A DNA stretch of 64,000 bases, from the NCBI RefSeq assembly GCF_000143965.1, contig NC_014365.1, forward strand, positions 1,515,501 to 1,579,500. Direction: 5' to 3'. Positions 25,361-30,477 of the stretch are shown piece by piece. Numbering within the stretch: the stretch's first letter is position 1; every line of letters starts with the position of its first letter. The position numbers were made by a program, and so were the translations under genes. Under the pieces are notes generated by a model. The model worked only from the letters and a program-made list of their open reading frames with translations. It ran no database searches and was not told where the DNA came from. The stretch is from Desulfarculus baarsii DSM 2075 (GTDB taxonomy: Bacteria > Desulfobacterota > Desulfarculia > Desulfarculales > Desulfarculaceae).

Positions 25361-25981
25361 CCCGCCCCGGCCCCGCGCCAATTGGCCGGCGATGCGCGCC
25401 ACGTGACGGCCCTGGAAGCGGGCGATGGACAGCTCGTTTTTGCTGGGTTGGCGCGAACCATCGTTGGCGGCGATGGTGGTGGCCCCATAGGGCGTGCCGC
25501 CGCTGATCTCGCCCATCTCCAAAAGCCCCGGCTCGGTGAAGGGCACGCCGACGAGGATCATGCCGTGGTGCAAAAGCGTGGTGTGAAAGCTGAGGATGGT
25601 CGATTCCTGACCACCGTGCTGGGTGCCGGTGCTGGCGAAGACGCTGCCCAGCTTGCCGACAAGCTCGCCGCGCACCCAAAGCTGCGAGGTGCGGTCGAGG
25701 AAGTTGCGCATCTGCGAGCACATCATGCCAAAGCGGGTGGGCGTGCCAAAGATGATGGCGTCGGCCTGGGCCAGCTCGGCCGGCTCGGCCACGGGCACGT
25801 GGGCGAAGGCCCGCCTGGTCTTGTCGGCGCCGCTTTGGGCCAAGGCCGCCTCGGGCACCAGCTCGGGCACCTGATAGAGGGCCACCTCGGCCCCCGGCTC
25901 GCGCCTGGCCCCTTCGGCCACGGCCTCGGCCAACTTATACACGTGGCCGTACATGCTGTAGAAAACGATATGAACGCGCAT
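25355..25981 (-). CDS. wrbA: NAD(P)H:quinone oxidoreductase, WrbA family
   Basis: 208 residues from an ATG with AGGGGG upstream. Flavodoxin-like fold: [20 protein letters not shown] (FMN phosphate loop), [34 protein letters not shown] and [11 protein letters not shown], all WrbA hallmarks. Two-electron quinone reductase that limits redox cycling. Its stop overlaps the end of the convergent kinase gene by six bases. Confidence 0.93.
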
Positions 25982-26104
25982 CAAAAAACCCCCTTGGCTG
26001 TGGGACAAACCACCGGCCGCGCGCATGACGGTTGCATCGCCGCGCGCGGGCCGTTATGTTGATTGTAACCCGTCGCCAACGGCCAACCAACAAGGAAAGC
26101 GCCG

Positions 26105-26881
26105 ATGGAAAAGCCGCACTCAGACCTCGACTGGATCGAAAAGCTGCTGATCGCCGCCGGGCTGGTGACGCTTTCCACTTTTTTGTACGTGGCCCACTAT
26201 TTTTTGTTCGACAGCGCCCACGGCCCGGCCTACTACGCCGACAAGGTTTTTTCGCACATCGCCTTCTTGCCCATACACGCCCTGGTGCTGGGCGTGATCA
26301 TTGACGGCATGATCACTTTCCGCGAGCGCCAGGGGCGCAAGCGGCGACTGAACATGTTCCTGGGCATCTTTTTCCGCCAACTGGGGGCCGACATCCTGGC
26401 CATGGCCAGCGGCCTGTGCCAGAACCGCGACGAGCTCGACGCCATCACCGTGGTGCATCAGCAATGGGGCGCCCGCGATTTTCGCCGCGCCCGCCAGGGC
26501 CTGGCCGCCTTTCGGCCACGCATGGCCGCCGACGAAAAACAGGTGCTGGCCCTGCTGGATTATCTGCGCCAGCGCGAGGGCGATATCCTGGAGATGACCC
26601 GCAACCCCCTGGTGCTGGAATTCGAGGATCTTTACCACGGGTTGATCTCGCTTTTTCACCTCATCGAGGAGATCCACTACCGCAACTCCGACCAGGCCTT
26701 TTCGCCGGGCGAATTGACCCACCTGGCCAAGGACGTGGGCAAGTCGCTCAAGCAACTTTCGCATCTCTGGCTGATTTATCTGGAGCACCTCAAGGCCGAG
26801 CACCCGGTGTTGTTCCACTGCCAGGTGGGCGTGTGCAGCACCATCGGGACCATGCTGCTGGAGGACCGCTACGACGATTGA
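26105..26881 (+). CDS. Membrane protein of unknown function
   Basis: 258 residues, family not recognised. Two hydrophobic segments near the N-terminus (about 13-33, IEKLLIAAGLVTLSTFLYVA; about 48-66, HIAFLPIHALVLGVIIDGM) form a hairpin, followed by a basic stop-transfer region (RERQGRKRRL) and a soluble alpha-helical domain of about 180 residues, predicted cytoplasmic by the positive-inside rule. Histidine-containing helices (FHLIEEIHYRN; HPVLFHCQVG) are notable. ATG with AAGGAAAGCGCC upstream. Monocistronic between wrbA and a bidirectional terminator. Confidence 0.75.
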   Translation: MEKPHSDLDWIEKLLIAAGLVTLSTFLYVAHYFLFDSAHGPAYYADKVFSHIAFLPIHALVLGVIIDGMITFRERQGRKRRLNMFLGIFFRQLGADILAMASGLCQNRDELDAITVVHQQWGARDFRRARQGLAAFRPRMAADEKQVLALLDYLRQREGDILEMTRNPLVLEFEDLYHGLISLFHLIEEIHYRNSDQAFSPGELTHLAKDVGKSLKQLSHLWLIYLEHLKAEHPVLFHCQVGVCSTIGTMLLEDRYDD

Positions 26882-26897
26882 AGGACGCGGCGGCCCC

Positions 26898-26929
26898 AAA
26901 AAAGCAAACCCCCGGCGCGAGGCCGGGGG
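26898..26929. terminator. Bidirectional intrinsic terminator
   Basis: Perfect 8-bp stem CCCCCGGC/GCCGGGGG (26909-26916, 26922-26929) with a five-base loop. On the minus strand it is followed by TTTGCTTTTTT, a good T tract serving the 30-codon gene and ackA; on the plus strand only by CTTT. Confidence 0.7.
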
Positions 26930-26952
26930 CTTTGGCCGATCGGGCCGGCGCT

Positions 26953-27045
26953 CTAGCGGTCGTTCTTGGTGCCGAAATAGACCAGCGACGTCACGCACGA
27001 CCAGAAAAAGGCCGCGCCCAGAGCGCCGAGAATCACGTCGAACAT
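26953..27045 (-). CDS. Small single-span membrane protein, 30 residues
   Basis: Begins MFDVILGALG and ends YFGTKNDR, with an uninterrupted hydrophobic middle (about residues 4-24) that suits one membrane helix and a charged C-terminus. GGAGG lies six bases before the ATG, among the best ribosome sites of the window, and an intrinsic terminator lies 24 bases after the stop. It follows ackA by 94 bases on the same strand, so it may be the last gene of pta-ackA or have its own transcript. The layout resembles small accessory subunits of transporters or oxidases, but no such partner is adjacent. Function unknown. Confidence 0.65.
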   Translation of the reverse strand: MFDVILGALGAAFFWSCVTSLVYFGTKNDR

Positions 27046-27139
27046 TTTTGTCCTCCATCCGTGCAAGGGGCCTTGTCGCCAGGTTTTTGGGGCATATTAA
27101 TACACCCCGGCCCGGCGGGAAAGTCTTTTCGCGCGCCTG

Positions 27140-28351
27140 TCAGCGCCCGCCGTTCAAGAGCTTTCGCGTCTCCTGGGCGATCTTGAGCTCCTCGTTGGTG
27201 GGCGTGACCAGCACCTGCACCAACGCGCCCTCGGGGCTGATCAGGCGCGGGCCGTGGTTGGGGGCCAGGTTGCGCGCCGGGTCGATGGCGATCCCCAAGC
27301 CCTCCAGGCCCCGGCAGCACAGCTCGCGCACCTGGGGCGCGTTTTCGCCGATGCCGGCGGTGAAGACCAGGGCGTCGAGCCGGCCCAGGGCGGCCAGGTA
27401 GGCGCCGATGTATTTTTTGATGCGGTAGGCGTAGACGGCCAGGGCCGTGGCGGCCTTTTCGTCGCCGTTGTGGCTGGCCTCGATGACCTGGCGCATGTCG
27501 TTGTGGCCGCAGAGGCCCTTGAGGCCGCTTTCCTTGTTGAGCAGGCGGTCGATGTCCTTCAGGCCCAGGCCCAACTGGTCGGCCAGAAAAAAGGGCAGGG
27601 CCGGGTCCACGTCGCCACTGCGCGTGCCCATGACCAGGCCCTCCAGGGGCGTCAGGCCCATGGTGGTGTCGATGCATCTGCCGCCGCGCACGGCGGCCAT
27701 GCTGGCCCCGTTGCCCAGGTGGACGGTGATGATGTCGAGTTCCTCGACTGGCCGGCCCAGAAACAGCGCGGTCTGCTCGGTGACGTACCAGTGGGAGGTG
27801 CCGTGGAAGCCGTAGCGCCGCACACGGTGCTTTTGGTAAAGCTCGTAGGGCAGGGCGTAGAGGAACGCCTCGGCCGGGATGGTCTGGTGAAAGGCCGTGT
27901 CAAATACGGCCACCTGGGCGGCCTGGGGGAAGATCTGCCGGGCCACGCGCACGCCCACCAGGTTTGGCGGGTTGTGCAGAGGGGCCAGGGCGGCGTTTTC
28001 CTCGATGGCGGCGATGACCGCCTCGTCGATGAGGCAGGGGGCCTTGAAGCGCTCGCCGCCGTGGACGACGCGGTGGCCCACGGCGTCGATGTCGGACTTG
28101 TGGGTGATGACGCCCACGCCGGGGGCGGTGAGCAGCTCGACGATCAGATCGAGGCCCTGGTGGTGGTCGGCGATGGCCCGGTCGTATTGGCCGAGCCTTT
28201 CCTGGCCGTCGATGAAGGCCTTGTGGCGCAGGGAGCTTTGCTCCTCGCCGATGCGTTCGGCCAGGCCCGAGGCCAGAATGACCGCGCGCTCCATGTCGAA
28301 GAGCTGATACTTGATCGATGAACTGCCGGTGTTGATGACCAGGATGCGCAT
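27140..28351 (-). CDS. ackA: Acetate kinase
   Basis: 403 residues. Interconverts acetyl phosphate + ADP and acetate + ATP. ASKHA-fold motifs: VINTGSSSIKYQLFD (phosphate 1), FDTAFHQTIP, RRYGFHGTSH, VHLGNGASM and FTAGIGENAP. The ATG overlaps the pta stop (TAATG on the minus strand), so the two steps of acetate activation or substrate-level phosphorylation are coupled. Confidence 0.95.
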   Translation of the reverse strand: MRILVINTGSSSIKYQLFDMERAVILASGLAERIGEEQSSLRHKAFIDGQERLGQYDRAIADHHQGLDLIVELLTAPGVGVITHKSDIDAVGHRVVHGGERFKAPCLIDEAVIAAIEENAALAPLHNPPNLVGVRVARQIFPQAAQVAVFDTAFHQTIPAEAFLYALPYELYQKHRVRRYGFHGTSHWYVTEQTALFLGRPVEELDIITVHLGNGASMAAVRGGRCIDTTMGLTPLEGLVMGTRSGDVDPALPFFLADQLGLGLKDIDRLLNKESGLKGLCGHNDMRQVIEASHNGDEKAATALAVYAYRIKKYIGAYLAALGRLDALVFTAGIGENAPQVRELCCRGLEGLGIAIDPARNLAPNHGPRLISPEGALVQVLVTPTNEELKIAQETRKLLNGGR

Positions 28352-30477
28352 TACTTGAGCCCCTTGACCGCCTGGGCCTGGATGGCGGTGATGGCGATGG
28401 TGTTGAGCACGTCGGAGATGGTGCAGCCGCGGCTGAGGTCGTTGACGGGCTTGTTGAGGCCCTGCAAAACCGGCCCGATGGCCAGGGCCTTGGCCGAACG
28501 CTGCACGGCCTTGTAGGTGTTGTTGCCGGTGTTCAGGTCGGGGAAAATGAACACCGTGGCGTGGCCGGCCACCTCGGAGCCGGGCATCTTGGCCTGGGCC
28601 ACGGCCGAATCCACGGCGGCGTCGTATTGGATGGGCCCTTCGATCTTCAGGTCGAGCCCGCGGGCGACGGCCTTTTCCTTGGCCATGGCGGTGGCCTCGC
28701 GCACCTTGTCGACGTCCAGGCCCGCGCCGCTGTCGCCGGTGGAGTAGGAGAGCATGGCCACCCTGGGCTCGATGCCAAAGGTCTTGGCGGTCAGGGCGCT
28801 GTCGAGGGCGATCTCGGAGAGCTGGACGGCGGTGGGATTGGGGTTGACGGCGCAGTCGCCGTAGACCAGCACCCGCTCGGCCAGGCACATGAAAAAGACG
28901 CTGGAGACGACGGTGGTGCCGGGCTTGGTCTTGATGATCTCGAAGGCCGGGCGCACGGTGGCGGCGGTGGTGTGCACCGCGCCGGAGACCATGCCGTCGG
29001 CGTCGCCGACGTGGACCATCATCGTGCCGAAATAGCTGGCGTCGCTGACGGCGTCGCGGGCGTTTTCGGGGGTGATGCCCTTGTGCTTGCGCAGCTCGTA
29101 GAACTGCTGGGCGTAGTCTTCGAGCTTGTCCGAGCGCTGGGGATCAATGACCGGGACGTCTTCCAGGCGCAGGGAAAACTCGCGAATGCGGTCGCGGACG
29201 CGGCTTTCGTTGCCCAGCAGGGTGATGTCGACGACGTCACGGCTGAGCAGTATCTCGGCCGCCCGCAGGATGCGCTCGTCCTCGCCCTCGGGCAGGACGA
29301 TGTGCTGCTTGTGCTTGCGCGCCCTTTGCAGCAGGCGATACTCGAACATCTTGGGCGTCATCATCGAGGTCTCGGAGGTGACGATCTTGCCGGCCAGGGC
29401 CTCGTCGTCGACGCTCTTTTCAAAGACGGCCAGGGCCCTGGCGATCTTGCGGTCGTCGTGGGGCGAGAGCTTGGCGCAGACGGCCTCGACCTTGATGGCG
29501 GTGGGGTAGGTGTTTTCGGCCACGCTAAGCACCGGGACCATGCGCGAAAAGCCGGTGATCAGCTCGCGGATGGGCTCCTCGGGCAACAGCCCCCCGGTGA
29601 GGATGATGCCGGCGATCTTGGGCATGGACTGGGAGCTGAGCGAGGCCAGGCTGGCCACCAGCACGTCGGCCCGGTCGCCGGAGGTGATGACCAGGGTTCC
29701 GTGGTTGATGCGTTGCAGGAAGTTGTGCATCTGCATGGCCGCCACGGTGAAGCTGTGGACGTTGCGGTTCAAGTGCTCGTGGCCGTAGAGCACCTTGGCC
29801 CCCAGGCTCTTGGCCACCTCGCCCACGGTGGGCAGCGACAGGGTGCGGCGGTTGGGCACGGCGTAGACGAGCTGGTTCTTGGCGAAGCGCATTTGCTTGA
29901 TGGTCTTGATGATGACGTCCTGCTCGCCGGGGCGGACCCGGTTGACGATGGTGGCCACCACCTCGCAGCCGCGGGTGCGCAGCGAATCGAACGACAGCTC
30001 CACGGCCCGGGCGGTCTCGTCGACGCTCTTGTTGTGGGCGTTGGCCACCAGAAGGACGGGGGCCTGGAAGAGCTTGGCCAGCTCGGAGTTGATGTCGAAC
30101 TCGAAGGCGCTGGTGGAGTGGACGAAATCGGTGCCCTCGTAGAGCACGAAGTCGAAGTTTTCCTCCAGCTTGCTGTTCTTGGCCAGAATCTGCTCGACCA
30201 ACTCGGAGCGACGGCCCATCGACCACATCATCTCCGATTCGGCGGCGGTGAAGGCGTACATGTCGTGGATGGGGATGCCCAGCTTGAAGTGCTCGGCGAT
30301 CAAGTTGATGTCGTGATCGATGACGCAGGGGTCGGCGGCGCAGCCGTTACTCTGGATGATCGGTCGGAAAAAGGCCACCTTGTCGATCATGCGCATGAGC
30401 ATCTCCATGACGCCCAGGCAGATGACCGACTTGCCACTGTAGGCTTCGGTCGAGGTGATATAGAGGCTGTTGGCCAT
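28351..30477 (-). CDS. pta: Phosphate acetyltransferase, long form
   Basis: 708 residues from the ATG with GGAGAG. Three parts: an N-terminal BioD-like P-loop domain (NSLYITSTEAYSGKSVICLG, about 1-200), a DRTGG domain (about 210-340, VITSGDRADVLVA) and the C-terminal catalytic PTA domain (from about 375; VVLPEGEDERILRAAEILL, GVVHTTA-like GAVHTTAATVRPA, YSTGDSGAG). This is the E. coli-type long Pta, whose N-terminal domain is regulatory. Makes or uses acetyl-CoA via acetyl phosphate, paired with ackA. Confidence 0.95.
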   Translation of the reverse strand: MANSLYITSTEAYSGKSVICLGVMEMLMRMIDKVAFFRPIIQSNGCAADPCVIDHDINLIAEHFKLGIPIHDMYAFTAAESEMMWSMGRRSELVEQILAKNSKLEENFDFVLYEGTDFVHSTSAFEFDINSELAKLFQAPVLLVANAHNKSVDETARAVELSFDSLRTRGCEVVATIVNRVRPGEQDVIIKTIKQMRFAKNQLVYAVPNRRTLSLPTVGEVAKSLGAKVLYGHEHLNRNVHSFTVAAMQMHNFLQRINHGTLVITSGDRADVLVASLASLSSQSMPKIAGIILTGGLLPEEPIRELITGFSRMVPVLSVAENTYPTAIKVEAVCAKLSPHDDRKIARALAVFEKSVDDEALAGKIVTSETSMMTPKMFEYRLLQRARKHKQHIVLPEGEDERILRAAEILLSRDVVDITLLGNESRVRDRIREFSLRLEDVPVIDPQRSDKLEDYAQQFYELRKHKGITPENARDAVSDASYFGTMMVHVGDADGMVSGAVHTTAATVRPAFEIIKTKPGTTVVSSVFFMCLAERVLVYGDCAVNPNPTAVQLSEIALDSALTAKTFGIEPRVAMLSYSTGDSGAGLDVDKVREATAMAKEKAVARGLDLKIEGPIQYDAAVDSAVAQAKMPGSEVAGHATVFIFPDLNTGNNTYKAVQRSAKALAIGPVLQGLNKPVNDLSRGCTISDVLNTIAITAIQAQAVKGLK

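Follow-up and report, generated by a model that had tools for sequence, protein, structure and literature searches.

The window, that is the whole 64-kb stretch of DNA that was analysed, contains on its minus strand a short frame that begins with ATG, comprises 30 codons with the translation MFDVILGALGAAFFWSCVTSLVYFGTKNDR, and ends with TAG (Table 1). An in-frame TTG at position 27066 could add 7 residues to the N-terminus. No sign of an extension of this type was present among the homologues described below, and the ATG at 27045 is therefore the preferred start. The gene lies between ackA, which is upstream, and a convergent frame of 258 residues (positions 26105–26881, plus strand). The latter frame has hydrophobic N-terminal stretches and no Pfam match, and its NCBIfam match is at chance level (E 0.23).

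Table 1. Features of the peptide locus, in window positions.
Feature	Positions	Strand	Basis or remark
Gene for a 30-residue one-helix membrane peptide	26953–27045, stop codon included	minus	Frame, homologues, conservation, predicted helix
Ribosome site, GGAGGA	27051–27056	minus	11 nt before the ATG
−10-like box TATTAATAT, of a putative own promoter	27094–27102	minus	TAYTA in 7/7 copies
Putative A-rich upstream promoter region	27103–27132	minus	AAAA run upstream of TAYTA
Intrinsic-terminator-like hairpin with T-rich tail	26896–26932	minus	Scan and folding
ackA, upstream; adjoins the peptide gene only in the window's genome and is not in the unit of relatives	27140–28351	minus	PF00871, E 2.9e-155

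Among ATG frames of 20–45 codons with GGAGG or AGGAG 5–15 nt before the start, the peptide frame is the only one in the window. Thirty block shuffles of the window contained a mean of 6.8 such frames when hydrophobicity was ignored, more than the real window, and a mean of 0.07 frames with a 19-residue Kyte–Doolittle mean of at least 1.6; the corresponding value for the peptide is 2.0. AlphaFold2, supplied with a seven-row alignment, predicted a single helix comprising residues 2–29 (mean pLDDT 87), a model that does not bear on partners. A coding frame with one membrane helix marks small single-span membrane proteins in general, and the peptide fits this kind, insertion into the membrane being suggested by hydrophobicity. 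The preliminary description, of a short membrane-peptide frame preceded by a good ribosome site and followed by a terminator-like hairpin, was thus borne out, and the frame is kept in relatives.

Besides self, a single-sequence search of 60 genomes, including the peptide's own, returned six nearly full-length matches, all in the same bacterial family (E 1.7e-6 to 0.015). Its four remaining matches, short and in other families, appear to be chance hits. Intact homologues of 29–31 residues are present in 7 of the 20 genomes of the family, own genome included (G000, G003, G004, G006, G009, G011 and G015), and the other six are 48–53% identical to the window's peptide. G006, G011 and G015 are near relatives, so the independent samples are fewer than seven. 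The non-carriers are ten genomes in three other genera, and G008, G013 and G016 of the carriers' genera (54–71% complete). A seven-sequence profile recovered the same seven from the 20 family genomes (E 3.8e-18 to 6.8e-16), which is partly circular because these seven rows built the profile. In the family search, 16 of the 20 genomes gave a match at E 1; nine non-carriers, matching over 7–18 positions only (E 0.026–0.6), were rejected, as were second, weaker matches within carriers, and the convincing copies amount to one per carrier genome.

Searches of phylum genomes, contigs, phage, plasmids, the PDB and family libraries did not reveal any convincing homologue outside the family. When 395 genomes of the phylum were searched with the profile, 32 matched at E ≤0.1, including four family carriers; the other 28 matches (E 0.0047–0.096, over 9–23 of 29 positions) were not accepted. 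The phylum and family loci that were inspected had the match inside a long frame, had it in a frame that was interrupted by stops or looked antisense, or were missing half of the peptide. This inspection comprised translation of the loci with full flanks (part of L022–L054) and a loose motif check of L024, L029, L037, L042, L043, L045 and L055–L063; for L029, L042, L043 and L045 it did not reach the matched stretch itself, and five phylum matches had no assigned locus. A degenerate DNA pattern that matches all seven copies was found in nine stretches of GTDB contigs, six of which were attributed to known carriers. The remaining three (a Woesearchaeota MAG, a Methylocystaceae MAG and Leuconostoc lactis) were judged to be chance, because they have no upstream stop in the 33 codons shown and diverge after FW. 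The window's peptide gave no tblastn match at E 10 in 50,697 phage records, and none in plasmids, and the PDB profile search gave a single match (E 1.8), which was rejected. A limited literature search for small transmembrane proteins in Desulfarculus found no paper, which is a weak negative. The peptide family looks restricted to part of one bacterial family.

Comparison of the seven copies indicates that the frame very probably codes for protein. Its mean BLOSUM62 score over all pairs was 2.69, compared with 0.78–1.91 in the five alternative frames; two of these are likewise stop-free. None of 2000 column shuffles reached the score of the peptide frame. Frame-disrupting differences in relatives had been named beforehand as evidence against the gene, and none occurs in any of the seven copies. 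Differences by codon position, summed over pairs, were 216, 171 and 271. The synonymous bias that had also been proposed as a check is present but modest, with a pooled pN/pS of 0.71 by a crude count. More telling for coding than pN/pS is the dependence of conservation on helix angle: the conservation moment of residues 3–26 peaks at 100 degrees per residue, and was equalled in 31 of 20,000 shuffles.

The sequences flanking the frame are partly conserved as well. GGAGG is present 10–11 nt before the start in all seven copies, and a TAYTA box 41–57 nt before the start, likewise in all seven; 2–4% of background 100-nt stretches contain TAYTA, although the motif was picked post hoc from the viewed alignment, and the near relatives have the whole upstream stretch in common. 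An AAAA run is located about 24–30 nt upstream of TAYTA in six of the copies, the exception being G003. The sequence immediately 3′ of the box is GCGCC in four copies (G006, G009, G011 and G015, at loci L018, L015, L017 and L016, respectively). GC-rich discriminators are a feature of growth-rate-controlled promoters, and GCGCC after the box, as in TAGTATGGCGCC, is reminiscent of these. In the window, a near-perfect palindrome, GGGGTGTATTAATATGCCCC, at positions 27089–27108 spans the −10-like box, and by eye is not evident upstream in relatives.

The hairpin in the window contains 11 pairs, starts 20 bases past the stop, and has a folding energy of −26.5 kcal/mol (z −2.44). A GC-rich hairpin 3′ of the stop is present in five of the seven copies (the window, G003, G006, G009 and G015). 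Its T tail is good in three of these (the window, G003 and G006); that of G009 is weak, and that of G015 amounts to just TTT. Folding z-scores were −5.19 for G015, −2.00 for G003 and an unremarkable −1.13 for G009; the G006 hairpin was judged by eye, as the folded stretch stopped short of it. In G004, no hairpin was seen in the bases shown after the stop, and in G011 the contig does not extend past it. The peptide gene appears to be a self-contained unit, consisting of a promoter-like block, a strong ribosome site, 29–31 codons and usually a hairpin. The promoter-like block and the terminator-like hairpin would also suit a conserved small RNA in which the frame is a chance ORF. We regard this as extremely improbable, because column shuffles do not reach the frame score, the stretch 26953–27090 folds no better than shuffles (z 0.23), there is no Rfam match, and conservation tracks helix geometry.

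The preliminary description had linked the peptide to acetate metabolism, and this link was not upheld. About 95 bp separate the peptide gene from ackA, which precedes it in the same orientation, and no terminator was seen in this gap by the scan, so that read-through is possible and the peptide could be the last gene of a pta-ackA operon, functionally part of acetate metabolism. However, ackA adjoins the peptide gene in the window's genome only. In G004, the neighbour encodes a protein like those of Fe–S biosynthesis (E 4.7e-5, which does not reach the Pfam cut-off). In G003, a rhodanese gene lies upstream and an ABM-domain protein is encoded convergently, and G009 has a divergent FMN dehydrogenase, with an ABC ATPase further downstream. 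In G006, the neighbour is a carboxymuconolactone decarboxylase-family protein, with an enoyl-CoA hydratase before that; the decarboxylase-family protein has a 96%-identical copy in G011 and the hydratase a 75%-identical copy in G015, and neighbours are partly common to three of four carriers in one genus. No adjacent gene common to different genera was seen among the seven carriers, and the sole neighbourhood match between genera in a first comparison, which was incomplete because antisense frames had been called at several loci, was a distant ABC ATPase pair (29% identity) that does not adjoin the peptide. The neighbours given here were re-read from ORF lists.

Acetate kinase was matched in 6 of the 20 family genomes: the window's, G004, where it is on a contig other than the peptide's, and four non-carriers. 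The other five of the seven carriers, G003, G006, G009, G011 and G015 (98%, 99%, 97%, 85% and 71% complete, respectively), gave no match. Because the neighbours differ between genera, and acetate kinase was either not matched or located on another contig in the six other carriers, the position behind ackA looks accidental. Considering also that the peptide gene has its own promoter-like block, membership of a pta-ackA operon is scarcely credible.

An unlinked position and a patchy presence are also expected for a type I toxin-like hydrophobic peptide, which would depolarise the membrane and be checked by an antisense RNA. TisB and Ldr are type I toxin peptides, short and hydrophobic, and the peptide described here resembles them in these properties and in its standalone gene; its size, single helix and strong ribosome site point in the same direction. 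We nevertheless consider a toxin unlikely. There is one convincing copy per carrier genome and no multicopy pattern was seen, the leader and the promoter-like block are kept across about 50% protein divergence, the leader is short, and no Rfam family was found in 25900–28400. A strict sigma-70 scan of 26850–27250 showed no promoter-like site on either strand, and no antisense promoter, although the scan likewise fails to detect the promoter proposed for the peptide gene itself and is blind to divergent promoters.

The invariant residues in the seven-sequence alignment are V4, G7, A11, A12, F14 and W15. The conserved face of the helix is centred on V4, A11, W15 and A22, with G7, A8, V18 and T19 beside the centre; F14 and A12, although invariant, sit at the edges of the face, about 80 degrees off its centre. 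All seven sequences have K or R at position 27. We lean, with some reserve, towards an accessory single-span peptide, which would pack its conserved face on a larger membrane protein or on itself, and stabilise or tune it. The peptide would insert as one span with its C-terminus in the cytoplasm, as the K or R at position 27 suggests. The face around V4, A11, W15 and A22 may then pack on a transmembrane helix of a larger protein, or on itself, and this packing may stabilise or tune the larger protein. The partner would be encoded elsewhere, and would not be specific to acetate metabolism. Limits on this packing model are the pooled pN/pS, which is just 0.71, and the conserved face, which homodimer, partner and toxin readings predict alike.

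The one-sided conservation makes stabilisation of a membrane complex, as first suggested for this peptide, plausible, but none of the four candidates tried emerged as a partner. Across the 20 family genomes, cytochrome bd was present in 18, SSS in 20, KdpA in 3 and COX1 in 9 (5 over the cut-off), and none of the four tracks the 7/20 pattern of the peptide; of the seven carriers, two have KdpA and four have COX1 over the cut-off. A more specific proposal, that a membrane energy complex has the peptide as a dedicated subunit under separate control, is unlikely. Given the resemblance of GCGCC after the −10-like box to growth-rate-controlled promoters, the quantity or activity of such a complex could then depend on how much peptide is made.

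AcrZ, KdpF and CcoQ are one-span accessory peptides, and the AcrZ gene is not known to lie beside the gene of its partner. The preferred accessory peptide is alike in architecture, and like AcrZ would be encoded apart from its partner, but has no convincing Pfam or NCBIfam match. Adjacency to kdpA, expected for KdpF, fails, there being no KdpA match in the window's genome. A small accessory protein of an SSS symporter was also rejected: in the window's genome the SSS match is at 2.12 Mb and the peptide at 1.54 Mb, and none of the seven members gave an NCBIfam match of this kind.

A small cytochrome bd oxidase subunit of the CydX/CydY/CydZ type would be comparable in size, with a single helix and a ribosome site, and the report of CydY from epsilon- and deltaproteobacteria in excerpts of PMC4325964 counts in favour of this assignment. 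However, the same excerpts place CydX in the cydAB operon and give its motif as YxxWxxGx15E/D (PMC4325964), whereas the peptide gene is standalone, the motif is absent from the seven-sequence alignment, and the likely orientation is opposite to that described there for CydX. In the window's genome, cydA is about 230 kb from the peptide gene, and the interval from cydB (identified by eye) to the gene that follows holds no complete minus-strand frame of at least 25 codons. In one genus, cydA occurs in eight genomes that lack the peptide. Searches of Pfam and NCBIfam at E 10 gave no match to a CydX-type model for any of the seven members. Taken together, a cytochrome bd subunit is very unlikely.

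Pfam and NCBIfam searches with the seven members gave no match good enough to inform function. PF22868 (YmiA-like) was matched by one of the seven at a chance-level E of 0.11, the window's own peptide being unmatched, and a match of one member to NCBIfam PRK09984 (ATP-binding protein, E 0.033) was taken as chance. Three of the seven weakly matched PHROG 35694, a family of phage proteins without an assigned function (best E 0.0007; the window's peptide, E 0.0025 over residues 3–25), a similarity that could be generic helix likeness.

Judged from sequence, this is a real, conserved orphan gene for a small membrane protein, ordinary in kind and belonging to no named family in the libraries searched. 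It adds to the lineage a well-supported orphan small-protein family with a signature of one-face conservation, and corrects a tempting link to acetate metabolism as unsupported. The six invariant positions provide a direct handle for partner pull-downs.
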